NCBI GenBank assembly: GCA_006503475.1
Contig: RSEH01000182.1
Location: 1-64,000 of the forward strand
DNA: 64,000 bases
From: Stentor roeselii
Taxonomy: Eukaryota > Ciliophora > Heterotrichea > Heterotrichida > Stentoridae
Reading direction: 5' to 3'
Shown here: positions 26,001-63,716 of the stretch, in pieces
How the letters are laid out: each line of letters begins with the position of its first letter
How positions within the stretch are numbered: the stretch's first letter is position 1
Made by a program: the position numbers and the translations under genes
Notes under the pieces: model-generated
Told to the model about the DNA's origin: nothing
The model's input: only the letters and a program-made list of their open reading frames with translations
Databases searched by the model: none

Positions 26001-26811
26001 CACTTTGATCGATGCTTGAAGAGGTTGGCAGACAATAATCAACATTACCAATTAAAATTCCAGGATTACATCCATCTACACAGGTAGAAAAGTAGCAGTT
26101 AACAGTATCCGATGAAAGATAAGTATCAGGATTTTCATACGAGTCAAAAAGCAAAAAATTCCAAAGAAAGTATTTAAAAGTGCTAGTTACATCAAGAAGT
26201 GGGTAAAGAGCCCCAAGTTCCATTTCAAAGATGCTTCCTCCTTCACTGTATTCTTGATTTAATGAGTACTTTGATTTCGTCTTGGCTGATATTCCCACAG
26301 TGCCCTCTTGTCCTTGAACTCGAAACCAAATCAACTCCCAGGATGACTTTGAAAGACTTGCCTGACCTTGGCTTGATAGAGTGAAACTTGTTGGGAAACT
26401 CATTGGAGAAAGCAAGATTTGACAGGGGGATTTGTTTAGAAATATTGTTAGACGGTTTGCTGACCCTTGCTTGATTCGACGAAAGAAGTAAATGTTTGAA
26501 GAGAGGTCTGAGCAATCAAGAGTCATCATTGCCCAGAACATGATGGTTAAGGTTTTGGATAGGGTGATGGGAGTAGAAATAACATCATTTGGTGGAAGTA
26601 AAACCTTTTGTGTGCTATCACTAAAAAATATTCCTCGATCACTTGAAATAACATCTAAATTTGATGTATTCGAATCCTCTCCATTAACAGCATGGTTGAA
26701 GTTTCCAGAGTAATCAAAAAAAATCTGCCCATAATTCCTGGAGTACCGATATTCAACCACCTTCGAAGCCCAAACAACGCAAAAAAATCCCGAAAAAAGG
26801 TAAAAAGCCAT
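23041..26811 (-). CDS. Large cysteine-rich multipass cell-surface protein
   Basis: A 1256-residue single-exon protein. It has a signal peptide (MAFYLFSGFFCVVWA), a LamG/concanavalin-like domain (about 20-230), then a long cysteine-rich ectodomain (about 240-760) of repeated furin-like/growth-factor-receptor modules with the recurring pattern C..C...C..C...GC.C..G(F/Y). A linker with beta-strand character follows, then several membrane helices (about 880-1230, for example VCLLFIFLYIIYRRHF), and a short polar tail. This is the architecture of a large ciliate family of surface proteins of unknown ligand, sometimes annotated as insulin-like growth-factor-binding-domain proteins. It may act in contact sensing or adhesion, but no enzymatic domain shows what it signals. 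The nucleoside hydrolase gene lies 23 bp upstream on the same strand. Confidence 0.88.
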   Translation of the reverse strand: MAFYLFSGFFCVVWASKVVEYRYSRNYGQIFFDYSGNFNHAVNGEDSNTSNLDVISSDRGIFFSDSTQKVLLPPNDVISTPITLSKTLTIMFWAMMTLDCSDLSSNIYFFRRIKQGSANRLTIFLNKSPCQILLSPMSFPTSFTLSSQGQASLSKSSWELIWFRVQGQEGTVGISAKTKSKYSLNQEYSEGGSIFEMELGALYPLLDVTSTFKYFLWNFLLFDSYENPDTYLSSDTVNCYFSTCVDGCNPGILIGNVDYCLPTSSSIDQSANGTQCSCSNFGCTNQISCLDELDCEFNSIEFIDSLKFCKCFPECDSCKTYLKCKTCKDPNAEAADPSGCVCKEGFYNITEIGTSSTACLECHSNCATCEGPETCLTCKVTNAIPDTVGCKCPDSTYLDENSCQNCHEHCESCSQSLVCITCVDSNAEPDQVGCSCIEGYFNDTTSGLCVQCHSDCKTCSEDLKCNECYYPNSIASDIGCECLYGFFNDSSSCVQCHDDCLSCISYSNCLECVLNNSSPSENGCSCNEGFYYNLVNNLCQSCPENCSECSEIEKCETCSSSETCLCPQNTYPSNTQDCECPNPCIKCIELTCSKCLSGFHIEELKCKKCSEICKTCSGSGEENCTSCISSKMSLSEGQCKCLDGFYLSYLNSPSCEPCSLSCKTCSGALEADCLLCANENSTLLNEKCQCIQGFYNDGKNCLQCKNIQNYSEFNCYCSSDSESSSECQTCQDLCFTCLNESHSQQVFCDNLKSDISQCFCSTVQEKLFVRASISFKNMITLIFSRPLETNLSESDFEVKSLSQNFSFSLSFISSSEYKLTIKEADILYSSQKIIIYFHGSVKSIQGYNLENIQLEITLFQNAIIEDHHEIKRKENLAKNGVIIGAAGSLAVSIITNDYSCIFNFLNFAEIYASIALFDLEIEDDLLAFLRNLRVQKLTSNIFERVHHDDGIYSEEAFLMYGFKTRSILINGGPIFVSFLTLSAVYMAFKKLPGYLIDNYQVMIFIKNYMEYSLFTRFWIQTFFEMNLCALYSISLGYFKSPFYAIDFIVSYFTIVINIQIGQVCLLFIFLYIIYRRHFIINPTAYTIYETKYSSFFSDFNLKSFETSLFYLIFFIRRFTIAICVTLIQVPSLSFSFSFMFSISVTFNQNLFYILYSNCFKSRYDHFFHLTNEAVTILVLVLIFVSLMNGSDKLADHIGDICVSLIGIVWVLNWINCLGKAVSRIRKKCRELKEGAKVVPETEVRTAKNPANSVNDE

Positions 26812-28734: not shown

Positions 28735-30699
28735 ATGGTCGAGCATTCATCTCACCACAGCAGCAAAGTAGAGTTATTCCTATCGGCAAAGCAGCTAAAA
28801 GACCGAGACGCCTTCACCAAAAGTGACCCATACTGCGTGATATTCTCCGAGTCTTCCCCATCTCACTTCACCGAGCTTTCTAGAACCGAAGTAAAAAAAG
28901 ACGACTTGAATCCAGTCTGGTCGACATCATTAGTTCTCGACTACCACTTCGAATTAGCAGTCCACTTGAAGTTCCAGGTCCTTGACCACGACGAGTCCAA
29001 GCCAGACGACCTCGGCTCAGTCTTAGTGAGTCTTGGCGACCTGGTTGCGAAAGGAACCTCTTCACTATCATTGCCAAGTGGAGGTCAGTTGATAGTCCGA
29101 GTTCAACAGTTCAACTTTTCAAGAGAAGCTTTTGTGTTTCACTTACGAGGTCTTCATCTTGACAAGAAAGACACTTTTGGAAAGTCAGACCCTTTCTTCC
29201 TCGTCTATCGACATGTCCATGATAATGAATGGGCTGAAGTGTATAAAAGTGAATATGTTCCTGATACTCTTGACCCTGTTTGGAAGCCTTTTGAGTTGAG
29301 GGAACAGGTGTTGTGTAACAGTGACAGAAATCGTCCTATTAAATTTGAAGTTTTTGACTGGGATAGGAACTCTGACCCGGAGTTGATTGGAGTTCATCAG
29401 ACCAACTTGGCACAGTTGTTGGCACCTGGATATCGATTCCACTTGAAACACCCTAAGAAGGATAAACCTTCTGGAGAACTGGAAATTACTCAGGTCGTTG
29501 TTAAGAGATATCTCACTTTTATTGACTATCTCTGGGCCGGAGTTCATATTTCTTTAAGTGTTGCTATTGACTTCACTGCTAGTAATAAAGAACCAAGTGA
29601 TCCTCATAGTTTGCATAGAATTGCGAATAACTTCTGGAATGATTATCAACAAGCTATTTGGGAAGTTGGAGGAATTTTACAGGCTTATGATGCTGATCAT
29701 CTTTATCCTGTTTTTGGATTTGGTGGATGTCCGAGACAAGGAGAACCCACTAGTCATTGTTTCCCGTTGACTGGAAATATCGCGAATCCTTACGTTCATA
29801 AAGTTGAAGGAGTACTCGATGTATATTCCTCAGCTTTAAAAGTAGTAGAGTTATCAGGTCCAACTCATTTCCACCACATCATAAACCAAACAATATCCGT
29901 GGCAAAAACGACTCCTCCTCACTCTCAATACTACATCCTTCTGATCCTAACCGACGGAGCCATCATGGACATGCAAGAGACAATCGACAGCATCGTGACC
30001 GCCTCTCACTTGCCGATCAGCATAATCATCATAGGCATCGGCGATGCTGTATTCGACAGCATGGTCACTTTAGACGCTGATAAAAAACGTCTAAAAGACT
30101 CTCATGGAAAAGAAGCCGCCAGAGACATTGTCCAGTTCGTGTCTTTCAAGAAGTTCGGAGGCAATGCAATCCGACTTACCACTGAAGTCCTTCGAGAAAT
30201 ACCTCATCAACTGACTGAATTTATGAGGATTATTAATTATGTACCTGAGGCTCAGACTATCATTCAGAAGAGGGATGAAGTCAAAGTTGTCGTCAGTCAG
30301 GAAGAGGAGGCACATCATCGGCATAGACATCACCATCAAGATGGCACCGTCACCGTAACAGAAACCCATTCTAAAGGCGAAGAACATAAAGTTGAAGCTG
30401 TTGTGCATATAGAAGGAAGCTCAGAACATCATCATCGTCATAGACACCACCACAACGATGGCACGGTCACCGTAACAGAAACCCAATCAAAAGGTGAAGA
30501 ACATAAGGCTGAAACCGTTGTTGAAGTAGAAGGAAGCTCAGAGCATCATCATCGCCATCGACATCATCATCGTGATGGATCAGTTACTGTTACTGAATCA
30601 ACTACTCATGAAGGATCAACTGAAAAGAAGGAAGGTGAAGTGAAGGAAGGTGAAGAATACCATCATCATAGACACCATCACCACACTCATGACTCTTAA
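28735..30699 (+). CDS. Copine with histidine-rich repeat tail
   Basis: A 654-residue copine: two C2 domains (about 7-130 and 135-265) and a copine-type vWA domain (about 280-500). The C2 loops keep calcium-binding Asp residues (KDRDAFTKSDPYC with LDHDESKPDD; KKDTFGKSDPFF with FDWDRNSD). The vWA part contains FTASNKEPSDPHSLH and YYILLILTDGAIMDMQET, both typical for copines, which dock on membranes in response to calcium. Beyond the usual end (about residue 525) is an unusual tail of three tandem 39-residue units, HHHRHRHHHxDGTVTVTE followed by SKGEEHK and an acidic linker, ending in another His cluster. Total length exceeds typical copines (about 540-560) by roughly the tail. The tail could bind zinc, copper or nickel, or sense pH. 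Single exon. Confidence 0.96.
   Translation: MVEHSSHHSSKVELFLSAKQLKDRDAFTKSDPYCVIFSESSPSHFTELSRTEVKKDDLNPVWSTSLVLDYHFELAVHLKFQVLDHDESKPDDLGSVLVSLGDLVAKGTSSLSLPSGGQLIVRVQQFNFSREAFVFHLRGLHLDKKDTFGKSDPFFLVYRHVHDNEWAEVYKSEYVPDTLDPVWKPFELREQVLCNSDRNRPIKFEVFDWDRNSDPELIGVHQTNLAQLLAPGYRFHLKHPKKDKPSGELEITQVVVKRYLTFIDYLWAGVHISLSVAIDFTASNKEPSDPHSLHRIANNFWNDYQQAIWEVGGILQAYDADHLYPVFGFGGCPRQGEPTSHCFPLTGNIANPYVHKVEGVLDVYSSALKVVELSGPTHFHHIINQTISVAKTTPPHSQYYILLILTDGAIMDMQETIDSIVTASHLPISIIIIGIGDAVFDSMVTLDADKKRLKDSHGKEAARDIVQFVSFKKFGGNAIRLTTEVLREIPHQLTEFMRIINYVPEAQTIIQKRDEVKVVVSQEEEAHHRHRHHHQDGTVTVTETHSKGEEHKVEAVVHIEGSSEHHHRHRHHHNDGTVTVTETQSKGEEHKAETVVEVEGSSEHHHRHRHHHRDGSVTVTESTTHEGSTEKKEGEVKEGEEYHHHRHHHHTHDS
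30310..30610 (+). repeat. Tandem 117-bp coding repeat (His-rich copine tail)
   Basis: Three in-frame units of 117 bp (39 codons) start near 30310, 30427 and 30544. Each opens with CAT/CAC-rich codons for a nine-residue His/Arg block and continues with the TVTVTE block. Units 1 and 2 are close copies; unit 3 diverges in its second half. The exact codon phase shows duplication within the gene. Confidence 0.9.
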
Positions 30700-35441: not shown

Positions 35442-38400
35442 CTAATTATTACTAGCTAAAAATGTCATAATCCTGTCAATCCCACTTTGAATTCCACTGA
35501 TTTTTCCATCAAGTTCCATAACCTTCTGATTAATTTCATTATGACTACAATCAACTTTCCTCCCAAGTGCATCAATTTTAAGGTCAAAATCAGTCTGAGT
35601 CAATTTAAGAATTTCCAAAACATTTTCATTTCCAGCAGGACTATTCATAATCTTAACTAAATTTTCCTGAACAGGTAATATTTTTTCCTCAATAAACTGT
35701 TGAGTTTCAATAATCTTTTCATTAATTTTTTCCCCAAACCTATTCTGATTTTCAGAGAAGACCTGAGTAACTTTTTCTATTTTTTTTTCCATATAAATCA
35801 TCCTCCCTTCCCAAGACTCTTGCATTCCAGCAGAAGCGAAAGATTTCATAACATGCATGAAAAAGTTCGAGTTTATTTCCCTATTCCAAAACATCATCTG
35901 TTGTATTTCCAGACTAAGAATTGCTTTTTCTTTATAGTCAATGATATTTTTTTCTACTTGGAACTGGTCATGTGAGTCTCCAAGAATAGAGACTAATAAA
36001 TTTAGCATCACGATTACATTGATCATTGTCGCGATTATATAAACTGCTTTGAGTAAAGCTGGAGCCTCTTCAGTCATGTCGTAGCTGCCGAAGTTTAACT
36101 TGTAGGGAGTCATCCATAGTGTTTCGAATGTTACTGAAATAGCCTTTCCGTCGCTTACCATCACCATTGAACCGAAGGTGATTATTGCGTAGCTTAACAT
36201 TATTACGAAGAATTTTGTGTCGCTTACTGAACGGAGGATTAAACGCACGTAGTAACGAGTACCGTCGAATAAACGAAAAGCTGTCAGTCCTCGTAAGAAG
36301 TTTGTGAAAATTACTAACCATAGTAAAGGTCGCCATGATATACTGAAAATTATCCATGTAAAAGTTGAGAGGATTCTTAGCATGTCGAATATGTTCCAGG
36401 TGTCTGTGAAGTATTCGAACTTTTGGATTGCGATTTGGATTCCTTCCCAAGCAACCAATAGTATATTAATCAAAACAAAAATTGAAACATAAAACCAATT
36501 ATCACTATTCTTATCACCATCAGGTCCCGATTCATCAATCAACACAAGTATCAAAGCAATATTAACAAAAAGTAATAAAGAATACCCAATAGTCCAGTAC
36601 TTAACTCTATTCCATTGAAATTGAATATAATTCTGAATAATTTCAGTTTCAAAGATCTGACTGTCAGAGCATTCAAGAATCGAATTCAACAAGTTAATGA
36701 CTTCTGAAGATCCTACCTGAGAAGGAAGTTCAAACAGACTAAAATCAAACTGAATTGGAATTTCTTCTAAATGCTCTTCATCTTTTTGCTCTTCATTTAA
36801 TAAAGATGGAGTTTCATTCAAACTTGGAAGAAAAGTTGAACTGAACTGAATCCTTGGCAAGGAAACGGAAAGTTTAGAAAAAAAAACTGGACTTGTTTGA
36901 ATCATCACGTTTAAGAAGTCTTTTAAATGAACTGAAGAGTTTGAAATTATCATTGTAAAATCGTGTCGAAGAGAGTAAATCGAACTGAAACATTCAAGTT
37001 GTTTTGATTCTTCTATTGATTTGCAGAGGTAGTTTAAAATTAAATCTGCACAGTTTTGGTGCTTTTTTATTATTGCGTAGTATATCGGGGATCTACTGAA
37101 TCGATCAGGCCGGATCAGAGTAGGTTGAGTCAACAAGTTTTCAATAATATCATCCCTTCCATTAAAGCAAAGTACATGAAGAATAGTGAATTTATATTGA
37201 GTAAAAGAAACTTGACTCACTGTTTTAGACATAAAAGAATACTCATCACTTCTAATATTTTCATAAATATTGTAAAAAACTAATTTATCCTGACAATAAG
37301 GATCAAAAGTATTCTTAATACTCCAATTTTCCCTTTCCACATTCTTCAAAATAGTATTCAAAGTTCTATTACTAGTATAATAATTCTTAAAATCCCAAAG
37401 TTTCAAGGCCTGATCAGCTGATCCAGTCAACAAATAATTATTTCCCATGATAGCAAGTGAAGTGATACTATCAGAATGAGCTCTAAATGAAAATTCAACA
37501 CATTTTTCTTTTAAATCCCAAATCTTAACCAAACAATCATCACCTCCACTGATAAGTCTTTCCTGATCCTCACTTTCACAGATCGCGACAACTTTTCCAG
37601 TATGTCCAAACAAGAAAAAATTTTCATTCCCATAAAGAAAATCCCAAATCTTAATCGAAGAATCTTCCGACCCAGTCGCTAAAAGTGTTTCATTTCTTAT
37701 CAAAGCAGAGCAAATCACAGGTCCTTTATGATTTTTCATCACTTTCAATTCAGACCTTTCAGCAATATCCCAAATTTTAATAGTTTTATCAAATGACGTG
37801 CTGATTATCCAGTTATTTTGAGAGAAAAGTAATAAACTTTGTATTGCTCTACGATGTCCACTCAAAGTGAACTTTAAACGTTCTTTATCTTTCCACTGAG
37901 GAGATTCTGAAGGTAGTCCAGAAATATCCCAAATCTTGATACTTGAGTCTAAACCGCCACTTATTCCAATATTAAGGTCTTGAGTCACTTCTACCGCACT
38001 AATCGAATTTGTATGACCCGGCAAGCCACAGCTGATATTTTTCTCCAAGTCAAAAACAATGAAATTTTTATCTCCTCCTCCAGCGACCATGACAGTTCCA
38101 TTAGAATGAACCCTTAAATCACTGATAAAAGTATTAGAAACAACGAAGTATTTACAAAATTTGTTGGTAAGAGCATCATAAACACAAACACTCCCGTTGG
38201 ACATGCCAATATAAAAAAAATCATGAAACCTTCGAATCACGTAGGCTGTGGCCGAAGGCCACAGCATGACAGTCTTTTGACGACATGTTTCAATGTCCCA
38301 TAATGTTAAACTCTTGTCACTTGCTGCAATTAATAAAGAGTCACTGCATAACTCAATTGCTCCGAAAATATTAAAACTCGCTGCAATGCAAGAGGCTTTT

Positions 38401-41400
38401 AAAGTAAAATCATGAACGTTCCATAGTTTAAATGTTCGGTCATATGAAGCACTCACTAGAAATTCACCTGATTTTATAAAGGTTAAACATGATATTTCTT
38501 TTGAATGGCCTGGAAGAGTCTTTTGAGGCTTTCTTGATGATAGGTCCCAAATGGTTATTGAAGAATCTTGACAACCGGAGGCTAGATGGGATGAGGATGG
38601 GTTGAAAGCTAGAGATGATATCGGCGATTTTGAACCTGGAAGGGAAAATTTTTCTTCCATTTTGGACAGGTCCCAGAATTTTATGGTTTTGTCGAAGGAA
38701 CAGCTTATTAATGTTATAGGGTCTGCGATGACTAGAGAACATACTGAACTTGTATGGCCTAAAAGTTCATTTATTAAATTTCCTGAATGAAAGTCCCAAA
38801 TCTTAATTGTCTTGTCCCATGAAGCACTTATCAAAATATCATCAAGAAAGACAAGTGCCTTAACAAGATCCCCGTGTCCTTGAAGAGACTTTAAAAATAT
38901 TCTCATCTGAAAGTTCCAAATTTTAATGCTTTTGTCCTTACCAGCACTAGCAATAAGTTGATACTTGTCACTAAAAGCTAGTGCTCGAATCGCTTCCTGA
39001 TGCTCCTGAAATTTCATCAACAAGCCACCAGAGGTATTCCAGACAATCAACCAACCATCCTCAGTTCCAGCAATAATAAGTCTTTTCTCAGCATCTGTGC
39101 AAATTGCCAGAACTGAAGAGTTAACTCCTACAAACTTTGCCCTTTCGCACATGTTTTTAATATTCCAAAGCTTGATACTTGAATCAGCCGATGCGCTGAT
39201 GACATATTTGCCATTAGGACTAAAGAGCACTGATTTGATAACTTCTCTCAAATGTCCTTCTAAGGTTAGTACTCGATGACTGTCTTCTAAGTTAAAGATA
39301 TGGATTTTGTTGTAGTCGTTCCAAACTGCAAGCTTTTGACTTGGGTGGATATCGATGCAGTTTGCTGCATAGACTATGTTTTGGAAGGTGTTTTCTAGTT
39401 TTTTGTTTGTTAAGGACCAAATTTTTATTGATTTATCCGCTGATACTGAAAAAATTCGCCCTCCTACTACTTTTATTTGGTTTATTATTCCTGTATGTCC
39501 GAGAAACTGATGTTCTATTCTTTTAAATGTGATTGACCACATTTTAATCTTGTCATTATTCGCAGAAATTAAAAACAGTGAATCATCTGTAAAAGCCAAA
39601 GAGCTCACAACACCAGTCTCAGGAAACGAAACAACAAGTTTTTTCGAACTAGTACTCCAAAGTTTAATCTCACCATCCGAGCTGCCTGTAACAAAATTAG
39701 AGTCATCAGGAGATAATTCAAGACATTTGATATCTTTGGTGTGTGCCTTATCACAAGAATCTTCTTGTTTGCTATTCACATTAAAAAAGCGAACTTCTCC
39801 GAATTCGTGACCAGTGATGATAGTTTTTTTATCTTTTGTTAAGCTAAAGCAAAAAATTTTTCCATAAATCGTATTCACTGTTTTCAGTGGTGACTTTGAG
39901 TTTAATATCCAGAGTCTTATTGATTTATCTTTAGATGCGGAAAAGAAGTGTTTAGGATTTGTTGATAAGACCAGAGAGTGAATAGTTCCTGAATGTCCTT
40001 CAAAAATAGTACAGCATTTTTTAGTCTGCAGGTCGAACGAAAGTATTTTTGAGTCTTGCATCCCTGCCAAAAGGTAAGCATCATCATAAGAAATTTCAAT
40101 AGAATAAATCATAGTAGCAGTCTTTATAACAGAAACCTCAGACCCCGTTGTAAAATTAGTAATAATAATCGACCTACACTGAGTTGCAACTAACACCCAT
40201 TTTTTCGATTCTAAAACCTTAACTGCATTAAGATAATCCGAAAACTTTTTCCTAAACTGCGAAACTCTTGAAGCAGCCTCCCAAACTTCAACCTCTCCAC
40301 CCAAGCTGCAAGCTGCAAAAAAAATCTCATTTTTCGACTTACAAGTATCAACAACTGGAAATAGAAATTCTTTAACCACATTAAAATTTTCCATTCTCAA
40401 AGTATCCCAAATAACCAAAGTCTTATCATTTGAACTACTCATCAAGAAGCTATTAACAAAAAGTAACGAAGTGATTTTTTCCCGATGATAATTCAATGAA
40501 AGTACCACCTCTCTCGATGAAAAACTCCAGATCTTAACCTGAAAATCAGCAGAAGCAGAAGCAGCGAGTTCATTTTTCAAATCACTAGCAATACACGTGA
40601 CTTCCTTCTGATGAAACGAGAGAGTTTCAAGTAACTCAGCTTTATCCGTATTCCAAATTCTTATAAGTGAGTCAGAGTATCCAGCAACGATATTATTTTT
40701 CAATGCAAGGGCGATACACAGTACTTCAGGAAGTCCAAAAGTAATGACTTGATTTTTTTTCTCAATGTCCCAGACCTTGAGAGTTGAGTCACTCGAGGCA
40801 CTGACGAGGTAGTCGCCACAACTGGAGACTTTTATCATGTTGACTTCTGACTGATGTCCGAAAAGTGTGCAGTAGTCTTTCCTGCTCACTGTGTTGAAGA
40901 CTTTTATTGTCTTGTCGCTGAGACCTGTTATGATTTTCTGAAGGTCGCTTGTGGCACAAACCGCCAGGGTGGTGTTCGGATAGTAAGTCAGGCCGTAAAC
41001 CTTCTTTTCCAAGCTTAGGTCCCAGATAGTCATGTAAAAAGCATCAGAACAAGTTAAAAGCAACTTTGAGTCATCAGCGAGTTTTAAAGATTTCACACCT
41101 CTTGAGTCTGTTAAATGACATTTTAATGTCCAATCTTCTTGATTCCAAACTTTTATTGAAACTCCTGCAGATGAGGCAAGGAAAACCTGGTCGATATCTA
41201 GACAAGTCACACTTTCATTGAAAATTTCTAAGATTTTCTCGTTTTTCTTATCAGATATCTCGAATAACCGAAGACTCTTATCAGAGCATCCGGAGATTAA
41301 GTACTTTAAATCATTTGAAATCTGGATTGAATTCACTGCAGAAGGCATTTCGATGTTTTGAATTAAAATTCCTTCTATTGTCCATTGTTTTATCAACTTG

Positions 41401-41846
41401 TCGTCTGAACAGCTGAAGATTTGGTCAGAACCTAAGAAAAGTGCAGAGTTGACTTTTTCACTGTGGCCTGTAAAGGTTCTGATTAGGGATCTACTTGCAA
41501 AGTCCCAAAGTTTTAAAGTCGTGTCAGATGATGAGCTCAGAAACATGGAATTTTCTTGGTTGAAGGAAAGACTTAACACGTCTGCGCTGTGGGACTTTAA
41601 AGTTTGAACTAGCTTTAGATCTGTCAGGTCCCAGATTATGATGGACTTGTCGGTGGAACCACTTAAAAGTGAATGGTCGTCGGAGGATAAGGCGAAACAG
41701 AGGATGGAACCTGAATGGGACTTTAATTCACCTTTTATTTCGATTAACTCTCTTTGGAGAACTTCAAAGTCCTTGGGTTCAGGATTTGGATTCCCGTTTT
41801 GAGCTTCAAGAAGCTTTAAGGTTAGATCTGAACCTGTTGAAACCAT
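35442..41846 (-). CDS. Giant WD40-ankyrin-TRP-like cation channel fusion
   Basis: A single uninterrupted frame of 2134 residues. Residues about 45-1485 hold roughly 35 WD40 repeats, counted by the closing strand (for example DKSIIIWDL, DSSIKLWNI, DKTIKIWDF) at about 41-residue spacing; 35 would fill five seven-bladed propellers. Residues about 1545-1625 contain an ankyrin-like segment (FTILHVLCFNGRDDIIENLL). From about 1745 to 1965 come six membrane helices in the ion-transport pattern: S1 GYSLLLFVNIALILVLI, S2 YVSIFVLINILLVAWEG, S4 LLWLVIFTNFLRGLTAFRLF without a regular Arg ladder, S5, a re-entrant pore TLWMTPYKLNFGSYD, and S6 VIVMLNLLVSILGDSHDQF, as in TRP channels (LLNLLIA.MGDT). A coiled coil follows (1970-2134). 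Predicted: a weakly voltage-dependent, probably tetrameric cation channel with a huge cytosolic WD40 scaffold. Confidence 0.92.
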   Translation of the reverse strand: MVSTGSDLTLKLLEAQNGNPNPEPKDFEVLQRELIEIKGELKSHSGSILCFALSSDDHSLLSGSTDKSIIIWDLTDLKLVQTLKSHSADVLSLSFNQENSMFLSSSSDTTLKLWDFASRSLIRTFTGHSEKVNSALFLGSDQIFSCSDDKLIKQWTIEGILIQNIEMPSAVNSIQISNDLKYLISGCSDKSLRLFEISDKKNEKILEIFNESVTCLDIDQVFLASSAGVSIKVWNQEDWTLKCHLTDSRGVKSLKLADDSKLLLTCSDAFYMTIWDLSLEKKVYGLTYYPNTTLAVCATSDLQKIITGLSDKTIKVFNTVSRKDYCTLFGHQSEVNMIKVSSCGDYLVSASSDSTLKVWDIEKKNQVITFGLPEVLCIALALKNNIVAGYSDSLIRIWNTDKAELLETLSFHQKEVTCIASDLKNELAASASADFQVKIWSFSSREVVLSLNYHREKITSLLFVNSFLMSSSNDKTLVIWDTLRMENFNVVKEFLFPVVDTCKSKNEIFFAACSLGGEVEVWEAASRVSQFRKKFSDYLNAVKVLESKKWVLVATQCRSIIITNFTTGSEVSVIKTATMIYSIEISYDDAYLLAGMQDSKILSFDLQTKKCCTIFEGHSGTIHSLVLSTNPKHFFSASKDKSIRLWILNSKSPLKTVNTIYGKIFCFSLTKDKKTIITGHEFGEVRFFNVNSKQEDSCDKAHTKDIKCLELSPDDSNFVTGSSDGEIKLWSTSSKKLVVSFPETGVVSSLAFTDDSLFLISANNDKIKMWSITFKRIEHQFLGHTGIINQIKVVGGRIFSVSADKSIKIWSLTNKKLENTFQNIVYAANCIDIHPSQKLAVWNDYNKIHIFNLEDSHRVLTLEGHLREVIKSVLFSPNGKYVISASADSSIKLWNIKNMCERAKFVGVNSSVLAICTDAEKRLIIAGTEDGWLIVWNTSGGLLMKFQEHQEAIRALAFSDKYQLIASAGKDKSIKIWNFQMRIFLKSLQGHGDLVKALVFLDDILISASWDKTIKIWDFHSGNLINELLGHTSSVCSLVIADPITLISCSFDKTIKFWDLSKMEEKFSLPGSKSPISSLAFNPSSSHLASGCQDSSITIWDLSSRKPQKTLPGHSKEISCLTFIKSGEFLVSASYDRTFKLWNVHDFTLKASCIAASFNIFGAIELCSDSLLIAASDKSLTLWDIETCRQKTVMLWPSATAYVIRRFHDFFYIGMSNGSVCVYDALTNKFCKYFVVSNTFISDLRVHSNGTVMVAGGGDKNFIVFDLEKNISCGLPGHTNSISAVEVTQDLNIGISGGLDSSIKIWDISGLPSESPQWKDKERLKFTLSGHRRAIQSLLLFSQNNWIISTSFDKTIKIWDIAERSELKVMKNHKGPVICSALIRNETLLATGSEDSSIKIWDFLYGNENFFLFGHTGKVVAICESEDQERLISGGDDCLVKIWDLKEKCVEFSFRAHSDSITSLAIMGNNYLLTGSADQALKLWDFKNYYTSNRTLNTILKNVERENWSIKNTFDPYCQDKLVFYNIYENIRSDEYSFMSKTVSQVSFTQYKFTILHVLCFNGRDDIIENLLTQPTLIRPDRFSRSPIYYAIIKKHQNCADLILNYLCKSIEESKQLECFSSIYSLRHDFTMIISNSSVHLKDFLNVMIQTSPVFFSKLSVSLPRIQFSSTFLPSLNETPSLLNEEQKDEEHLEEIPIQFDFSLFELPSQVGSSEVINLLNSILECSDSQIFETEIIQNYIQFQWNRVKYWTIGYSLLLFVNIALILVLIDESGPDGDKNSDNWFYVSIFVLINILLVAWEGIQIAIQKFEYFTDTWNIFDMLRILSTFTWIIFSISWRPLLWLVIFTNFLRGLTAFRLFDGTRYYVRLILRSVSDTKFFVIMLSYAIITFGSMVMVSDGKAISVTFETLWMTPYKLNFGSYDMTEEAPALLKAVYIIATMINVIVMLNLLVSILGDSHDQFQVEKNIIDYKEKAILSLEIQQMMFWNREINSNFFMHVMKSFASAGMQESWEGRMIYMEKKIEKVTQVFSENQNRFGEKINEKIIETQQFIEEKILPVQENLVKIMNSPAGNENVLEILKLTQTDFDLKIDALGRKVDCSHNEINQKVMELDGKISGIQSGIDRIMTFLASNN

Positions 41847-42099: not shown

Positions 42100-43011
42100 A
42101 TGAAACTAGAAGACTTACGAAACAACTGCTTCCTTGAAATAATCGAGTTTCTCACCTTTTCAGAAATAGCGAGTCTCCGAGTAATCTGCAAGTTCTTTCA
42201 GAAATTAATATCAAACAACTATCAATTTATTCAAAACCTGCTCTCATCAAGATACCTGATCGAAAATTCTGAAAACTTGAGAAACTGGGACGAAATCTCT
42301 GAAAAGATAAAAAAAGGATTAGACTCAAACACAATCGAGTATTTTTACCCTTATTACACCAACGGAGGGACTTATCATAATTATTCTGCTTATTTCATTC
42401 AAAATATTCTCAATGGTCGTGTTTACTGCACAACTGAAAAGAACAATATTCTTGTGAAGTACGGTTTCACGAGAAGCGAACCAATGCCTGAAACAGATCC
42501 ATTAGATCATAAAATATCAGACACCGAATTCTGCATAAAAAGCATCGAAGACTCGATGGATATTGACTGGAAAAATATTTCATTTATACATTCGGTCAAA
42601 ATAAGCATTCCTATACATGGCTTCACTTGCCCTGTTTCCACCTTGATGGTATTCAGTAGTATTGAAAAAGAAGACCTTGGAATGATCAAGTTATTTTATA
42701 ATACTTTTGATGTTGATCAAGTTGTTCATATCGCGAATTCTTTGAACTTGAATCCAATTGTTGATAGTTCGGATAGTCGTACTAAAGTTACTTTTGATAG
42801 ACGTGAACTTGGACTAGCTCCTTTGATGTGGGTCAAAGTGAAAAGTGTTTATACTAGACAAGAACATTACTTTTCGGAAAAACTGCAGAAAAGTCGATTC
42901 GCGAGATACTTTTATTTGCTTTTAATTGAGGCTGAGAATCTTGGAAGCGATTTTAATATTGACTGTGGCGAAGTTATTCCTGTATTCAAATTGATTAGAA
43001 TCAAGAATTAG
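42100..43011 (+). CDS. F-box-like protein, unknown target
   Basis: A 303-residue protein. Residues about 8-45 fit an F-box: CFLEIIEFLTFSEIASLRVICKFFQKLI, with the usual LxxLxxx..LR.VCK.F pattern, suggesting a substrate adaptor of an SCF ubiquitin ligase. The rest (about 60-303) is a mixed domain that I do not recognise, with GFTCPVSTLMVF and a conserved-looking C-terminus CGEVIPVFKLIRI. No intron; ATG preceded by TTTATAAA. Two decayed relatives lie downstream on the same strand (43988-44600 and 46520-46985), so this is the surviving copy of a small local family, and the C-terminal domain must have duplicated together with the F-box. Confidence 0.8.
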   Translation: MKLEDLRNNCFLEIIEFLTFSEIASLRVICKFFQKLISNNYQFIQNLLSSRYLIENSENLRNWDEISEKIKKGLDSNTIEYFYPYYTNGGTYHNYSAYFIQNILNGRVYCTTEKNNILVKYGFTRSEPMPETDPLDHKISDTEFCIKSIEDSMDIDWKNISFIHSVKISIPIHGFTCPVSTLMVFSSIEKEDLGMIKLFYNTFDVDQVVHIANSLNLNPIVDSSDSRTKVTFDRRELGLAPLMWVKVKSVYTRQEHYFSEKLQKSRFARYFYLLLIEAENLGSDFNIDCGEVIPVFKLIRIKN

Positions 43012-43987
43012 ATTTAGAGATAGAATATAGTTAAAAATAGTTAAAAATGCTGTATGATGGATGCTGAGGAATTTTTCAAGGATTAACAATAATTTTGTTG
43101 ACTCATCGAAAATTTAACCTATTGTTTGATAATCATTTAATATATTAAAAATATTCTTTATCTTAATCATAAGATCCAAGCAGATCTGAATGAGTACGTG
43201 GAGATGTTTCTGAGGTTTACCTTTTAAGTAATATTTTTTCGTCCTTGAAATTTTTACCCAAGCATTCGAGTATTTCTTTTTCAAAGATTTAAGATCTTTA
43301 AATAAATTTAATTCTTGTGGTGAATTCGTAAAGACATTTTAACTCTATCAAAAATTCACTTGCTTCTAAAAGAATTTTTCAGAAGAGTATTACATTAAAG
43401 ACTCAGCTATTAAGTGCTAAAATAATAAATATAATCGAGTTTGAACTTAAAGAGGCAGAATCAACTTTTCTTCACAAATAAAAATCAAAGATTTAGACCA
43501 ATTGTCTAACAAAAGGGAGAGAAGGAAAAGAATAAAACAAAAAAACTACAAAAAGAGAGCTGTGACTAATTGGAAGCGGGCCTTATGAAAATCCCTAATA
43601 AAAAGGTAAAGTTTATACCATAACCAAAATGCATTGAGAAATTGACTAAATCCAATAATTAGGAATTTTCTTTTTGTTTTCTTATATGCTCGATATATAA
43701 TTTTGCAACTTTATGTTTTATCTTATAATTAGAGTACCTAATCAACAATCCCCTTAAATTGCATTAAAGGTAATAAATTATAATACTATATATATAAAAG
43801 ATTTTTCAAACTTAAAATTACACTGATTTTGTATAAATTCAGCTTATTTGTTAATTATCATCTAAATCTTGTTAATATCTTATAAATCTTTTTCTATTCC
43901 TAAACCTTACCCAGATTTAAGTATTTCAACAAAAAAAACTGCGGAAATATTGAATCCTTATAAATCCCTATTAGTTAATAAAAAAAT
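43012..43987. other. AT-rich intergenic region
   Basis: A 976-bp stretch between the F-box gene and its first decayed copy. No open frame of note, no recognisable relic and no structured RNA seen. An A/G-rich patch occurs at about 43505-43560. Confidence 0.5.
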
Positions 43988-44600
43988 TTTTAGAGCTTGA
44001 AAACAATATCTTGCTTGATGTCCTTGAGTTTCTTATCTTTGCAGAAACACTCAGTAAGAAAAATCTAGAAATGTTCTTGTCAAGCACTTTTGTACCAACA
44101 ATAAATATGCACCTGTTCATCCCTTAAGTAAATGAGTATCGAAAATGTTTATTATATTGATAACATTGAAGCGTATATAGTACTCTAATAAACGAAATAC
44201 CAGTTATTCAGTCAATTAAAATTAATGCACCTTTTCCTTCTTGTTTTTCTTGCCCTGTTTCTTCTTGACAGTTTTTAGCAGTGCTGAAAAAAAGAGAGCT
44301 TGATTTAATAAAACTATTTTATGATGCTGCTAATATTTAAAAGTTATCGAAATTGCAATAATTATGAAATTTAACCCGATTGCTGATAGCTCAAATAATC
44401 TTATTGAGTTACTTTTTGTAGAAGAACCTGGAAATAGCTTTTTGTTGTGGGTTATACTGAATTGTACTTTTAATAGACAAATCATAAATATTTGGAGAAA
44501 ATGCAGAAAGTCTTTCGATATTTAATACCAAAAGAAATAAATAAGAAAGCGATTTAAACCTCACAACAAAAGTTTCTCTAAACTGATAATTGAAGTTTTA
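43988..44600 (+). pseudogene. Decayed copy of the F-box gene (copy 1)
   Basis: Collinear nucleotide and protein similarity to the gene at 42100-43011 across most of its length. The opening LENNILLDVLEFLIFAETLS matches the F-box; 44240-44330 matches the FTCPVSTLMVFSSIEKEDLG region; 44345-44580 matches the NPIVDSS ... LMWV ... EKLQKSR part. The reading frame is broken by several stops and length changes and there is a shortened middle. All changes are scattered, as in an old unselected duplicate of a host gene. Same strand and order as the parent, so a tandem duplication is likely. Confidence 0.82.
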
Positions 44601-45577
44601 CTTCTCTTGAAATCTCTCCTAAAAAGCCTCTTAATCACAAAATCGTGAATTCAATAGTCAGATTTAGGGCATCACGATGAAAAGCCTTGAATTACCACAA
44701 AAGTAAGTAAACTCTTTAACTTTTTCAGCCGATTCTCAATTCCTCATGACTAGCATAAAAACAAGACTTTAATATTATAAGATTTGATCACGAAGCATCG
44801 ATTCGAGTTATTCATGCAATCAAATGCAAAGCAAGCCCTCATTCAACTAAGATTCAATTCAACCAATATCGCGAAGTTCAAACCAAGAACTGATCATTTG
44901 GAGAAAGAATCCCAAATTTTTTAAATCGAATCTTGGTTGTTAATTGGCATTTGGTTGACTTAAGCTGGGATTTTAGTTCTTTTCTATTTTCGAGTAATTC
45001 CTATAGCGCTGCCATAACTGCCAGGCTTTAAATTTAATGGATGCTGTGAATTGTTCGTCTTTCAGGGCATTCAATCAGTATCTTCTGTTCAATTCGTTTA
45101 AGCAGATTATATGTGGTTTTAGAAAAATATGAGTAAAATTCATAATTCAGAAACTGCAAAATTTTAATTGAAGACAATTAGATGAGCATTTAGAATTAGC
45201 AAGCATGATTTTGTTAACATCAATGAAAAGATATGGGTTGTGAAAATGAAGAAGGAATCATGATTTGGAACTTTGAGATTGGATGACTTTAAAATTTTTT
45301 CAAGATCTACTGAGTAAAGAACTTGCTAGGGCGAAATCATTTATTTGAGAAAACTACAGAGGATAATTTTACCATCATAAAGTTTCGAAAAGCCTATATC
45401 AAAAAAGAAGTTAATCAATCGCACCTGGAGCAAGTAAATATTTTCAAAACTATAAATATATCAATATGTTGAAATAACATTTATTTGCTTAAAACTTTTC
45501 ATTCCTGGACAGGGTATCAAAACATTAGAAAGCATTTGCCAGTCAATCCCATATTAAATCTTCAAAAAGAATCCTTC
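44601..45577. other. Intergenic region upstream of RNase P RNA
   Basis: About 1 kb without a supported gene. Two overlapping coding-like plus-strand frames of about 40 codons lie around 44785-44925 and may be relics, but neither shows a motif. The last 30-80 bases should hold the RNA polymerase III promoter of the RNase P RNA gene. Confidence 0.45.
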
Positions 45578-45583
45578 TATAAA
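45578..45583 (+). promoter_or_regulatory. TATA box of the RNase P RNA gene
   Basis: TATAAA lies 28 nt upstream of the predicted RNA 5' end (45606), the spacing expected of external (type 3) RNA polymerase III promoters, which drive RNase P RNA in many eukaryotes. The matching upstream proximal element cannot be recognised without other snRNA promoters from this species. Confidence 0.65.
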
Positions 45584-45605
45584 CACTTTCCTCACCCTCT
45601 TAATT

Positions 45606-45823
45606 GGTCAAGTCCAAGTTTGCGCCTAGATAAGCACTAAAAGCGAAAGCTCTTTATCTGGGAAGGTCTGAGGTGCCCGTCATCCGAGAGGAAATACACG
45701 AGAGTGTAGAGATGGTCAACAGAAACAAACCAGCAATGTGTTGAAAGGGCCATTAGGCATGCAGCTAAGTCCAATGCGCAAAGGCTTTAAGCTAACTCAA
45801 TTCAGACTACTCTGGATTTGACC
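45606..45823 (+). ncRNA. RNase P RNA
   Basis: A 218-nt RNA that forms the catalytic core of the tRNA 5'-processing enzyme. CR-I GGGAAGGTCTGAG (45660-45672) and CR-V CAATTCAGACTACTCT (45798-45813) match human RNase P RNA almost exactly and pair to form P4 (GGTCTG with CAGACU). CR-IV AACAGAAACAAACCAGC near 45718-45734 matches human AACAGACUCACGGCCAGC. The ends pair as P1: GGTCAAGTCCA (45606-45616) with TGGATTTGACC (45813-45823), 11 bp including one G-U; that helix shares base 45813 with the CR-V block. P2 is TTTGCGC (45619-45625) with GCGCAAA (45776-45782), and P3 is the AGATAA...TTATCT hairpin before CR-I. TATA lies 28 nt upstream and TTTT follows directly. RNase MRP RNA is excluded by the RNase P-type CR-I and CR-V. 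The parvulin ATG is 10 nt downstream. Confidence 0.96.
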
Positions 45824-45827
45824 TTTT
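45824..45827 (+). terminator. RNA polymerase III TTTT terminator
   Basis: TTTT immediately after the 3' strand of the P1 helix of the RNase P RNA. A run of four T on the coding strand is the standard RNA polymerase III stop signal. It lies 6 nt before the parvulin start codon. Confidence 0.75.
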
Positions 45828-45833
45828 CCATAA

Positions 45834-46232
45834 ATGCCGAAAGGAAAAGCAAAAAAAGGCAAAGGAAACCAACCCGAAGAAGAAGAGAAAAAAGGGCCAA
45901 CAAAGTTGAAAGCTTGCAAGTAACATCTAAATAGTTTCGTAAAAGCCCGACATATTCTCTGTGAAAAGCAATCTAAAGCTTTAGAAGCCTTGGGCTTGTT
46001 AAGGGCTTCTTCTGGAAACAGACCCAGTCCTGCTGAATTCGGAAGAATCGCTGAACAGTTCTCAGAATGCTCAAGTGCGAAAAGAGGAGGAGATCTTGGA
46101 TGGTTCCCCAGGGGAAAAATGATTGGAGCCTTTCAGGATGTCGCTTTTGGACTTGAACCTGGCAATATGAGTGATGTTTTTAGAACTGGAGAAGGGTATC
46201 ATATTGTTTTGGTTGAAGGTAGAAGGGCTTAG
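45834..46232 (+). CDS. PIN4: Parvulin-type peptidyl-prolyl isomerase (PIN4/Par14-like)
   Basis: Splicing a 15-nt intron (45920-45934, GTAACATCTAAATAG) gives a 127-residue protein, very close to human Par14 (131). Exon 1 codes the basic N-terminal tail MPKGKAKKGKGNQPEEEEKK, as in Par14, which uses it for DNA or pre-ribosome binding. The junction restores the first strand of the domain, CNFVKARHILCEKQSKALEA (family VKVRHILCEKHGK). The rest shows FGRIAEQFSECSSAKRGGDL, WFPRGKMIGAFQDVAF and GYHIVLVEGRRA, all family-typical. No WW domain, so it is PIN4-like rather than PIN1-like. Parvulins of this group catalyse prolyl cis-trans isomerisation and act in ribosome biogenesis. The ATG is 10 nt after the RNase P RNA. 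Confidence 0.96.
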
Positions 46233-46519
46233 GTAGATAATAGCACAGTTGAGATGAAATGAATGTAGAAGGTGGTGGAATTTATTTTGGAAAAGTTTGG
46301 GTTTTGATTTAGCAGGGTTTAGAGTTTGGTGGTTTTGGGTTAAGTGGAGTTTTTTGAGGAGGTTATGATGATTGAGAGATTGAAGAATGTTTAAGATTAT
46401 TTGGATTATATAAGTTTAATTTCGATAAAAGGAAAGAATTAAAGACTATAATCAATTCTCTTGTATTAAAAATTATCGAATTAGACCAAGTTTTTACAGA
46501 GCTTTTCTAGGACTCGTTT
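46233..46519. other. G/T-rich 3' flank of the parvulin gene
   Basis: From about 46250 to 46390 the plus strand is G/T/A-rich and almost free of C, the reverse of the C/A-rich leaders seen before genes. No open frame. Confidence 0.4.
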
Positions 46520-46985
46520 TATTAAATTTGAGAAATAATTGTTTCCTTGAAATATAAGAATTTTTTAATTTTCAGATATCGAAACCTTCGAAAAACTTGC
46601 AGGTTGCTTCAATCCCTAATGTGTATTAACCACGAAGTAATGAATGTTTATTTTATAACAGATTTTTATAGAGAACACAGAAGATTTATATAAAATGGAC
46701 TAACTATGCGATGAAATAATACCTCATAAGACTGTTAATCATTTGAGAATTTTTATCTATTTTATGGCTTATGAAAGTTACTTTTGATAGAAAAGTACAG
46801 GCATGTCTTCGTTGTTGTAATCAAGGTAAATACATATTTCAATAGGAGAAAGTGGAATTTCTGGGAAAGCTAAAAAAGCAGATTCTCAAGGTATTTTATT
46901 TCTTTTAATTGAAGCGCAAAGTACTTTTAATAATATTGATTTTGGAGAAGTCACTCCTGTGTTTAATTGATTAGAATAAAGGAAT
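46520..46985 (+). pseudogene. Decayed copy of the F-box gene (copy 2)
   Basis: The 5' part (46524-46620) aligns with the F-box region of the gene at 42100 (LRNNCFLEI, then a stop, then EFFNFQ...). The 3' part (46775-46985) aligns with its KVTFDR segment and its C-terminus (NNIDFGEVTPVFN compared with DFNIDCGEVIPVFK). About half of the parent's middle is missing and several stops interrupt the frame. Same orientation as the parent and copy 1; the RNase P RNA and parvulin genes lie between the two decayed copies. Confidence 0.8.
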
Positions 46986-47218
46986 GAAAAATGATTAATA
47001 GAGATTAACTGATAAATTTAGTATTTCACTATTTTTAAACCAAATTTGAAGTAATAAGTTTATCTGATATTAAATCTTATTCTTTTAATCCTAATTAGTA
47101 TGGGTCTATTGGATATAACTTATTTTTTATAAGGCTATAAAGACTTTTAACGAATTAAGATTAATACTCAGTAATTCAAAAATTTATCTTATTAAAGGTC
47201 TAATCTAGATAAAATACA

Positions 47219-47773
47219 TTAAAATCTCAAGGATCCTGCTTTTTTCAAAGAATTTTGCAACGAGTTTTTCTCTATCACAATTAATTGTTTGAAAGACTCT
47301 CGAGAATTGAAAATCGAGGAGCATTCAAAATTACTATAAATCTTCTCATAACTTGATTCGAGGTCTTGAGGATTCAAACTTGGTGTAAGTGACAATGGAT
47401 GAGATAGGGAATCTCTTGAATTGAAAAAATCTGGAGTCTTAGCAAAGTATTTTCGACCTAAACACGAATGGCCGACTGTTTCAAATACCTCTGCTCTTTT
47501 CGAAGTGAAACCTGTTTGGGAAGTCTCTTCATTATCTAAAGATTTCAATGATTTTGAAAAAATCACAGAATTATCAAGAGTCTCACCAATAATCTCCTGA
47601 AATGGAAGATCTTGATCACCTTTATTTGATTTAACCTTAACCGATATAAACCTAGGTTCTAATTTCAAGTGATTTCTATTAAAATTTGATTTAAATTCAA
47701 AAAAATCATCAGTTTGAGTCGAATTTTCTTTTACCTCCAGATTTCCTTTACACTTTTTACATTCTCTATACAT
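47219..47773 (-). CDS. Small polar protein with CxxC motif, unknown function
   Basis: A 184-residue protein beginning MYRECKKCKGNLEVKENSTQ. An open frame continues upstream only through non-ATG codons, so ATG 47771-47773 is chosen. The CKKCKG pair near the N-terminus could be half of a metal site. The rest is Ser/Asn/Phe-rich with no domain (SKRAEVFETVGHSCLGRKYF), probably largely disordered. It is divergent to the SAXO gene (150 bp between starts). Even codon pattern supports a real gene; the function is unknown. Confidence 0.6.
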   Translation of the reverse strand: MYRECKKCKGNLEVKENSTQTDDFFEFKSNFNRNHLKLEPRFISVKVKSNKGDQDLPFQEIIGETLDNSVIFSKSLKSLDNEETSQTGFTSKRAEVFETVGHSCLGRKYFAKTPDFFNSRDSLSHPLSLTPSLNPQDLESSYEKIYSNFECSSIFNSRESFKQLIVIEKNSLQNSLKKAGSLRF

Positions 47774-47923
47774 GATAATTATGATCACATATAAATTTTC
47801 ATTAAATATAAAACTCCCTAACCAAAAACCTTATTATCCAAATAATCCAACTCTAAACAAAACTCTCAAAAAAAAAATCCTTCCTTCTTAACCCTCACCA
47901 GTTCTTTTAAACCCCTATAAAAA

Positions 47924-48727
47924 ATGTCAGAATCTTGCAAACTTCTCGATTTACCTCCAGTAGGCGAGATGGACCACAGCATCGGAATCTGTTACTGTCA
48001 GTTCTGCACATGTGGACATCACAAATGCCCAGGAGACCCAATGAAATCTCGTAGTTACCTTCCCTCCTCCCTTCGTTCTCTCTACAAAAACGATTTCACA
48101 AAGAAGTCACGAATAATCTCAGAGTACTCTAAACTTAGGCCAGTCCCAAGAGACAACGCATTAAGTTCCCCTCACAACCGAATGGACTTAAAAACAATAA
48201 ACCAGCAGGACTTTGTGCGATTTGACAACACATCTAAAACCCCTTCAGCGAAATTTGAAAAAGAAAGTCACAGTGGCGTGTTGAAGTTTTCAGGAATGTC
48301 TCAATATCAGTCTGAATTTCCTAATTGGGGCCATTACGAGTTCATCAGCATGAAAAGTCCTCGAACTATGATCGCGAATAGTTCAGTTAAACTTGACTCG
48401 ACTACGACTTATAAGCAGAATTTTGGAAAAAATTACTCTTCTCAGCCTAATTTGAGTAGAAGGAAAGTACAGATTAGCAACCCTCTTACTCTTGGAAGTA
48501 CTTTTTTTCCACAGACTACTAATGAAGCTACTTATAAAGCTTTTCAAAGACATCATTTCCCTGAACGAGCGGAAAATAAAGCCTTTGGAATCACGCCGTT
48601 GGTGACTGTTCCGGATAATTTCAAGTCGATGTATAGTTCGGAATTTTCACCCAAGGGGGCTCCTGTAGTGATTCAGAAGAAAAGAGACTCAATTTTGCAT
48701 CCTAACAATGTTTCTCTTAATCAGTAG
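47924..48727 (+). CDS. SAXO/STOP-family axonemal microtubule-stabilising protein
   Basis: A 267-residue protein with the hallmarks of the SAXO (FAM154) family: an N-terminal Cys cluster, ICYCQFCTCGHHKCPGD, corresponding to the family's CxxCxCGxHxCP element, followed by repeated Mn-like modules with the pattern S..Y...F and PR or P.F segments (SQYQSEFPNWGHYEF, STTTYKQNFGKN, NEATYKAFQRHHFP, FKSMYSSEFSPKG). SAXO proteins lie inside or along ciliary doublet microtubules and basal bodies and stabilise them. No intron. The leader is C/A-rich, ending CCTATAAAAA before the ATG. The tubulin-modifying TTLL gene follows on the same strand after 262 bp. Confidence 0.88.
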   Translation: MSESCKLLDLPPVGEMDHSIGICYCQFCTCGHHKCPGDPMKSRSYLPSSLRSLYKNDFTKKSRIISEYSKLRPVPRDNALSSPHNRMDLKTINQQDFVRFDNTSKTPSAKFEKESHSGVLKFSGMSQYQSEFPNWGHYEFISMKSPRTMIANSSVKLDSTTTYKQNFGKNYSSQPNLSRRKVQISNPLTLGSTFFPQTTNEATYKAFQRHHFPERAENKAFGITPLVTVPDNFKSMYSSEFSPKGAPVVIQKKRDSILHPNNVSLNQ

Positions 48728-62651: not shown

Positions 62652-63716
62652 ATGTTTCTGATTTTTAAGTTTTTATTTGCTCAGGCATCCATCACTATAG
62701 GAACAAATCCAACCAGTGTGACAATAGGATCTACATTAACCTCACTAAGTTGGAGTTTAGGTGTTTCTGCTACTTACGACTGCACTTTAAATTCTTACAA
62801 TGGTGAATTGAAGTTCGCTGATTTTTCTTTAGTATCTACCAAACAAGAATCCTACGTAGTCGGTACTTATTACAAATCCCTTCGTTTCGGAGGTTCTCAA
62901 TCCGAAATAAACTCATTTCTCGCTGCTTCAAATGTTGAGTACAGGCCACAGAACTACTACATAAATTCATCAGATACTATAAATCTAGCTTCAACTGATT
63001 ATTTAGAGCTAGTTTGCGGTGACGGAACAAATACCTACCAATCCGAGTACATCATAGGTATAAATTCCGCATCAGTATCAGGCTGGATCCCTTTATGCAC
63101 AGCTGGAACTGAATGCACATCAGGACAAGGCCAGTGCAACCCATTAGACGGTACATGTGACTGTTTCTACCCTTATTACGGGTCTAATTGTGAAAATATT
63201 GACTGTGGCTGGTGTCATAACGGAGGAACTTGCACCATTACTACTGGAATATGCAGTTGTCCTACTGGGTACTACGGTGATAACTGTGAATACGCCTATT
63301 GCCCTAAAGGCTCATCATCAACTAGTTGCAGCACCAACGGGTATTGTGATATCTTCAGTGGAGTTTGCATGTGCTATGAAGGGTACTATGGAGAATCTTG
63401 CAATAGGAAAAAGTGCCTCAATGACTGCAATAGTAATGGAGTTTGTAACTCAGCTAGTGGCGCTTGCACTTGCTATTCTACTTATTATGGAACTGACTGC
63501 GCTTATAGAAAGTGCCCTCGAGACTGTGGAGCTTATGGAGGATGTAACTTGTTAACTGGAGAATGCAATTGTTATGGAAGTTTTTCTGAGAAAGATTGCA
63601 TGTTTTCTAGTTGTTCTAATGACTGTAGTTCTCATGGAGTCTGCAATTACTACTCAGGGATTTGTGATTGTGATACTGGGTATGCTGGAGTTGACTGTTC
63701 TTTAGTCCAATCTTAG
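62652..63716 (+). CDS. Secreted EGF-like repeat protein
   Basis: A 354-residue protein with a short signal peptide (MFLIFKFLFAQA). A beta-rich, Cys-poor N-terminal domain (about 15-160) is followed by about seven consecutive EGF-like/tenascin-type modules (about 165-350) with the pattern C...C...G.C.....G.C.C..(Y/F)YG..C (for example CGWCHNGGTCTITTGICSCP; CLNDCNSNGVCNSASGACTC). It ends SLVQS without a membrane span or clear GPI site, so a secreted or matrix protein is most likely. Heterotrichs make lorica and surface material, but the partner is unknown. Starts 11 bp after the RING-like gene. Confidence 0.85.
   Translation: MFLIFKFLFAQASITIGTNPTSVTIGSTLTSLSWSLGVSATYDCTLNSYNGELKFADFSLVSTKQESYVVGTYYKSLRFGGSQSEINSFLAASNVEYRPQNYYINSSDTINLASTDYLELVCGDGTNTYQSEYIIGINSASVSGWIPLCTAGTECTSGQGQCNPLDGTCDCFYPYYGSNCENIDCGWCHNGGTCTITTGICSCPTGYYGDNCEYAYCPKGSSSTSCSTNGYCDIFSGVCMCYEGYYGESCNRKKCLNDCNSNGVCNSASGACTCYSTYYGTDCAYRKCPRDCGAYGGCNLLTGECNCYGSFSEKDCMFSSCSNDCSSHGVCNYYSGICDCDTGYAGVDCSLVQS

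Follow-up and report, generated by a model that had tools for sequence, protein, structure and literature searches.

The stretch of Stentor roeselii DNA analyzed here (contig RSEH01000182.1, positions 1 to 64,000, referred to as the window) carries on its minus strand, at 35442..41846, one uninterrupted open reading frame (ORF) of 2134 amino acids plus a stop, in which a long WD40 repeat array is followed by an ion-transport domain. We interpret the product, with somewhat more confidence than doubt, as a cation-channel subunit of TRP-like type whose very large WD40 scaffold, predicted to be cytosolic, would serve for docking or anchoring. Points that speak for this interpretation include a continuous frame whose coding signal runs on from the WD40 part into the channel part, an Ion_trans match above its cut-off, the charge pattern of the membrane segments, and heptads near the C-terminus. 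An earlier note, made from the letters of this DNA alone, had described a fusion of about 35 WD40 repeats with an ankyrin segment and a TRP-like channel, and its interpretation as a whole is partly supported by the analysis below.

One frame carries the WD40 array and the ion-transport domain

The coordinates and length of the frame agree exactly with those given in the earlier note, which left the strand unstated, and its core observation, that a single frame encodes a WD40 array and then an ion-transport domain, is confirmed. Read on the minus strand, the frame contains no in-frame TAA, TAG, or TGA ahead of its terminal stop; the plus-strand reading of 35442-41846 is stop-rich. If bases were drawn at the single-base frequencies of the window, a given frame would stay open over 2134 codons with a probability of about log10 P = -68. 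The 26 other ORFs of at least 200 amino acids in the window served to train a codon-usage score, which was applied to consecutive segments of 100 codons, the last one shorter. The score is above zero in 20 of the 22 segments, the two negative values being -0.024 (residues 601-700) and -0.003 (residues 1801-1900, within the channel part), and it lies at 0.10-0.18 in all four segments that span the WD40/channel junction (residues 1401-1800); the one-base-shifted frame scores -0.10. Because the codon signal runs on across the junction, both parts appear to be coding, with no visible gene boundary between them.

A fusion of two genes by a chimeric contig, or another artefact of assembly or gene model, could be suspected from the GC content, which is 0.30-0.31 across residues 1401-1750 versus 0.34-0.42 in most of the WD40 part. 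However, this frame is equally GC-poor at its C-terminal end (0.305-0.314), the window contains no Ns, and the codon score holds over residues 1401-1800. A stop-free, in-frame junction could arise by chance but requires a lucky join, and we consider an artefact of this kind highly improbable. At the other end, an in-frame stop lies immediately upstream of the frame. An extra N-terminal exon upstream of 41846 was considered and rejected, as all three upstream frames on the minus strand are broken by stops, although a tiny exon is still conceivable. The next ORF of at least 200 amino acids beyond 41846 begins at 42100 on the opposite strand.

The WD40 array is beyond doubt. With a profile made of repeats taken from this protein and anchored by eye, 35 full repeats are found (residues 36-1487; 37386..41741, minus strand), in line with the approximate count of 35 in the earlier note; an additional half repeat stands at the N-terminus. 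As a profile of this kind is circular, we turned to a split-half test, in which one half of the repeats trains the profile and the other half is scored. Thirty-one of the 35 held-out repeats are recovered at E<0.01 (15/17 and 16/18) and four fail; none of 35 shuffled repeats is recovered at this threshold. The Pfam WD40 family (PF00400) matches with 548.8 bits against a cut-off of 27, with 23 stretches passing individually, and 373 distinct PDB sequences match the array at E<=1e-20, the best of the 60 listed being the WD-40 repeat protein 2ymu (1.1e-92). In 33 of the 35 intervals, neighboring anchors lie 39-43 residues apart. The two odd spacings are 59 residues, after the half repeat, and 53 residues, ahead of repeat 32; so few longer gaps would suit a tightly packed chain. 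The mean identity among the repeats is 20%, from which we read the array as old rather than recently expanded. We note that the half repeat (MVSTGSDLTLKLLE..., residues 1-15; 41802..41846, minus strand), placed by eye at the very start of the protein, is a small oddity and not obviously the sign of a missed exon.

The division of this array into five seven-bladed propellers, proposed in the earlier note on the arithmetic that 35 = 5 x 7, finds no support in the tests made here. No seven-fold super-period is detected (p=0.88), and no block duplication within the array is significant over offsets 1-33 (best diagonal p=0.83). Tests of the neighboring periods gave p = 0.945 (5), 0.07 (6), 0.005 (8), and 0.57 (9), and a scan of 28 single repeat offsets gave a lowest p of 0.0085 at offset 24. 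The period-8 similarity (repeats 1-35, 37386-41741, minus strand) is put down to chance, because it is one of five periods and 28 offsets examined and because of the result of the diagonal test. A single-sequence AlphaFold model of residues 855-1500 has a pLDDT of 37.6, too low for interpretation. An identity as an EML/EMAP protein was also considered. EML propeller profiles are among the matched WD40 families, but this identity was rejected because generic WD40 arrays match many such profiles. EMAP-like microtubule binders are marked by the HELP motif, whose family is absent from the 25 families listed out of 55 and from the matches for residues 1480-2134.

The channel part and its possible kinship to TRP channels

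The Ion_trans family (PF00520) matches residues 1755-1965 (35952..36584, minus strand) with E 1.3e-7 and 31.5 bits, or 33.3 bits on a shorter piece, against a curated cut-off of 25, so that the ion-transport domain on which the channel claim of the earlier note hinged is found. Hydropathy gives five peaks above 1.6 rather than six, with the third straddling the S3-S4 boundary; the positions of S3 and S4, which hydropathy does not separate, were therefore placed by eye. Residues 1909-1923, TLWMTPYKLNFGSYD (36078..36122, minus strand), are the putative filter with its pore helix and align with the pore of the TRPV channel Inactive (E 0.018). The putative S6, which holds MLNLLVSILGDS, was placed at residues 1931-1958 (35973..36056, minus strand) from hydropathy, PDB alignment, and inspection by eye. 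Toward the C-terminus, a coiled-coil-like heptad segment is suggested at residues 2096-2132 (35451..35561, minus strand), where the best window reaches 0.85 on a crude home-made score (p=0.004, relative to 500 shuffled versions of residues 1991-2134).

The charges around the helices, as these were placed by eye, are informative with regard to topology and channel type. The S1-S2 loop of about 14 residues has one basic and five acidic residues, and the S4-S5 linker has five basic and two acidic residues, a distribution that, by the positive-inside rule, would put both termini in the cytosol. Voltage-gated cation channels carry a basic residue at every third position of S4. This pattern is not seen in the S4 placed here, in which one of 17 residues is basic, and in S4 together with the S4-S5 linker (FLRGLTAFRLFDGTRYYVRLILR) the arginines are spaced 6, 6, 4, and 4. 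TRPP and TRPML channels (polycystin and mucolipin) have a large extracytosolic domain between S1 and S2, where the present protein has its 14-residue loop. The near absence of basic residues from S4, taken with this short loop, speaks against a voltage sensor and against a polycystin. PKD_channel is not among the six Pfam families listed for residues 1480-2134, and no NCBIfam family was found in the same region.

Ahead of the membrane part, at residues 1551-1606 (37029..37196, minus strand), the Ank_2 family matches over 56 residues with E 1.7e-4. The ankyrin segment of the earlier note is weakly supported: at 22.6 bits the match lies under the cut-off of 27.3, which makes it the weakest part of the architecture and "ankyrin-like" the fitting term. 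The domain order is then WD40 array, ankyrin-like segment, six-transmembrane (6TM) region, and C-terminal coil; the last three occur in this order in several TRP families, and the charges around the helices likewise suit the TRP layout.

Among the ten PDB matches listed for the channel part, seven are of the TRPV family, two are voltage-sensor phosphatases, and one is a designed binder. Six of the seven TRPV matches are constructs of a single protein, TRPV6 (E 0.61-0.73), and align with S6; the seventh is Inactive, which aligns with both the pore and S6. A longer query also gave a match of S6 to NompC (E 0.026). These neighbors are consistent with a TRP-like 6TM channel domain, as the earlier note had proposed, and we regard membership in the TRP family as a lead rather than proof.

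Several results weigh against the TRP-like channel interpretation, in addition to the GC contrast described above and the Ank_2 score. No PDB match to the channel part is better than E 0.018 and none is significant alone, and S1-S3 align with the voltage-sensor phosphatases (E 0.048 and 0.058), which are not TRP proteins. The TRP box that follows S6 in TRPC, TRPV, TRPM, and TRPN channels is of the WKFxR type; the pattern W[KR][FLIVAM].[RK] is not matched anywhere in the protein, although a diverged box would escape it. No TRP-specific Pfam family is listed to E 10, in a search whose HMMER filters drop most matches above about 0.1. A single-sequence AlphaFold model of residues 1490-2134 shows helices in a fitting order at a pLDDT of 40.8, which is too low to rely on. 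Finally, the filter reads GSYD here and GDYN in Inactive, a difference that bears on selectivity.

The last point, namely a filter lacking an acidic residue at the position aligned to the D of GDYN, together with the modest Ion_trans score, raises the alternative that the protein is a WD40 scaffold anchored in the membrane, with a channel domain that has ceased to conduct. However, the Ion_trans profile is above its cut-off, an acidic residue is found two positions further on in the filter, and the pore-helix-like stretch and the regular hydrophobic S6 have been kept. We consider such a pseudo-channel quite improbable.

Proposed role, relatives, and genomic surroundings

Returning to the interpretation as a TRP-like channel subunit, residues ~1752-1958 are predicted to make up S1-S6, the pore lying between the last two helices. 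Tetrameric assembly is very probable from what is known of the family; cation conduction and a cytosolic position of the scaffold are predicted on the same basis, and the C-terminal coil may assist assembly. A tetramer carrying 20 propellers, as considered in the earlier note, would be a conjecture. The N-terminal 1490 residues would form a cytosolic chain of WD40 propellers that acts as a docking scaffold, anchored to partners at the cortex or the cilia so that the channel stays in place there, and collecting regulators beside the pore. A binding state or a load might then be passed through the ankyrin-like linker to the gate. The identities of the partners and gating by binding or by force are guesses on our part.

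A more specific possibility is a force-gated channel, tethered through its WD40 chain to myonemes or microtubules of the cortex, in which the chain would pull or push the gate in the manner proposed for the ankyrin domain of NompC. This would make the protein a candidate mechanoreceptor of a contractile ciliate. The very long N-terminus attached to a TRP-like pore and the weak likeness of S6 to NompC would fit this possibility. On the other side, no feature of the sequence bears on force sensitivity, WD40 propellers are stiff discs rather than springs, and the HELP motif is missing from the matches listed, which falls short of full exclusion. Precedents come from a tether model for the ankyrin domain in NompC gating, as presented in PMC8186909, and from ELP-1, a WD40 EMAP-like protein of C. 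elegans that PMC2642796 describes as microtubule-associated and expressed in mechanoreceptor neurons, with a reduced touch sensitivity when it is lowered. The precedent that ELP-1 sets concerns WD40 proteins in mechanotransmission and does not extend to a fusion of WD40 repeats to a channel. A mechanoreceptor channel of Stentor is known by physiology, to judge from a title cited in PMC7935092; a narrow literature search found no gene named for it. We regard mechanosensing by this protein as an attractive guess and force gating through the WD40 chain as unlikely. It would be a long shot that this protein is the first recognized member of a channel class in which about five WD40 propellers replace the ankyrin spring as cytoskeletal tether, and that it carries a mechanoreceptor or contraction-coupled current in a heterotrich.

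The question of novelty is separate, since the protein could be a genuine fusion and at the same time belong, as an unremarkable member, to a TRP-like family spread widely among ciliates, with no feature peculiar to this species. This reading is compatible with the docking scaffold proposed above, and we give it slightly better than an even chance. Database entries of ciliates that combine WD40 and ion-transport domains may exist. The table of Oxytricha MIC-enriched proteins in PMC9958989 has entries for WD40/YVTN (26), 'Transient receptor potential cation channel subfamily V' (6), 'Ion transport domain' (5), 'Quinoprotein alcohol dehydrogenase-like' (5), and ankyrin (4), but it tallies domains singly and not architectures within one protein. 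Searches for relatives of the channel part (568 amino acids) covered viral and prokaryote collections and are uninformative on ciliates: the viral contigs gave no pattern match, and none of 16 pattern-matching stretches in prokaryote genome contigs is related by tblastn. No description of a WD40-TRP fusion is found among the open-licence literature matches listed, which for several searches are part of far longer result sets and leave absence unproven. The protein probably belongs to a ciliate family that goes undiscussed in the literature examined.

Ion channels are usually tied to scaffolds through separate adaptor proteins, and a scaffold of ~1490 residues built into the channel chain itself is an unusual build. 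If the channel conducts, it would offer a natural example of propellers coupled to a gate. It would also provide a gene for knock-down in a ciliate in which mechanoreceptor and habituation have been described by physiology, and should the tether reading be true, it would give a molecular handle on both. RNAi by feeding or by injection of dsRNA is reported for Stentor in PMC13254835. If the architecture is common in ciliates, it would represent a channel family that animal-centered surveys may miss.

The surroundings of the gene allow the genetic code to be considered. The 27 ORFs of at least 200 amino acids in the window end with TAG (15), TAA (10), or TGA (2), and this usage, taken with the absence of internal stops in the 2134-residue frame, fits the standard code. 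A scan for GT-AG stretches of 15-17 nt whose removal extends an ORF gave five candidates in four ORFs. One of these is a candidate 15-nt intron, GTAAGGTTTAATTAG, at 13965 in a FAD-linked oxidase gene (13951-15216, minus strand); its removal lengthens the frame from 421 to 530 amino acids (+109 residues), and it has an A at position 10. A standard code and a 15-nt intron with this A match the pattern given for Stentor coeruleus in PMC9505925, where the code is reported as standard and the introns as 15-16 nt long, those of 15 nt having the branch A mostly at position 10. The match fits Stentor or a near relative, and so the ciliate origin assumed in the earlier note is supported.

Elsewhere in the window, the nuclear RNase P RNA (RF00009) is found at 45608-45821 on the plus strand (87.5 bits; gathering score 28), within a region, 43011-47924, that has no ORF of at least 200 amino acids; a tRNA scan found no tRNA genes in the window. 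A 1256-residue ORF at 23041-26811 (minus strand) has no Pfam match at E 0.001. The sole match at this threshold in a 794-residue protein at 8411-10795 (plus strand) is a cyclic-nucleotide-binding domain, with no channel family. In a Copine at 28735-30699 (plus strand), about three His-rich repeats of the form HHHRHRHHHxDGTVTVTE make up the C-terminal tail, and Teneurin-type EGF repeats are found in a ciliate-like protein at 62652-63716 on the plus strand (88.6 bits against a cut-off of 65).

Comparison with known systems

The polycystins (PKD2) of ciliates resemble the predicted protein in being 6TM cation channels. They differ from it in the large domain between S1 and S2, where the loop placed by eye here has ~14 residues, and PKD_channel is not among the families listed. 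Pkd2 has been studied in Paramecium, as described in PMC6627415.

The multi-propeller WD40 proteins, among them 2ymu and Apaf-1 as well as those behind the WDR3, TEP1, and EML profiles, share the WD40 repeats. To our knowledge, none of them includes an ion channel, and all have fewer repeats than are present here.

The TRPV channels Inactive and TRPV6 (PDB 9nvn and 5iwk) share the pattern of pore and S6, with MLNLLVSILGDSH here and MLNLLIAMMGDTH in TRPV6. The short S1-S2 loop, as placed by eye, likewise agrees with the TRPV layout, and in both cases an ankyrin or ankyrin-like stretch precedes the membrane part. Unlike in TRPV channels, this stretch is far shorter here and below the cut-off, the TRP-box pattern is absent, the E-values are only 0.018-0.73, and 35 WD40 repeats stand in front.

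NompC (TRPN; PDB 5vkq) has no significant sequence match to the protein, and its repeats are of another kind, TRP-N being described with 28 ankyrin domains (PMC4494053) in contrast to the WD40 repeats found here. Apart from the weak match of S6, the likeness is one of layout: in both, a very long repeat array, placed on the cytosolic side by prediction in the present case, stands ahead of a TRP-like pore.

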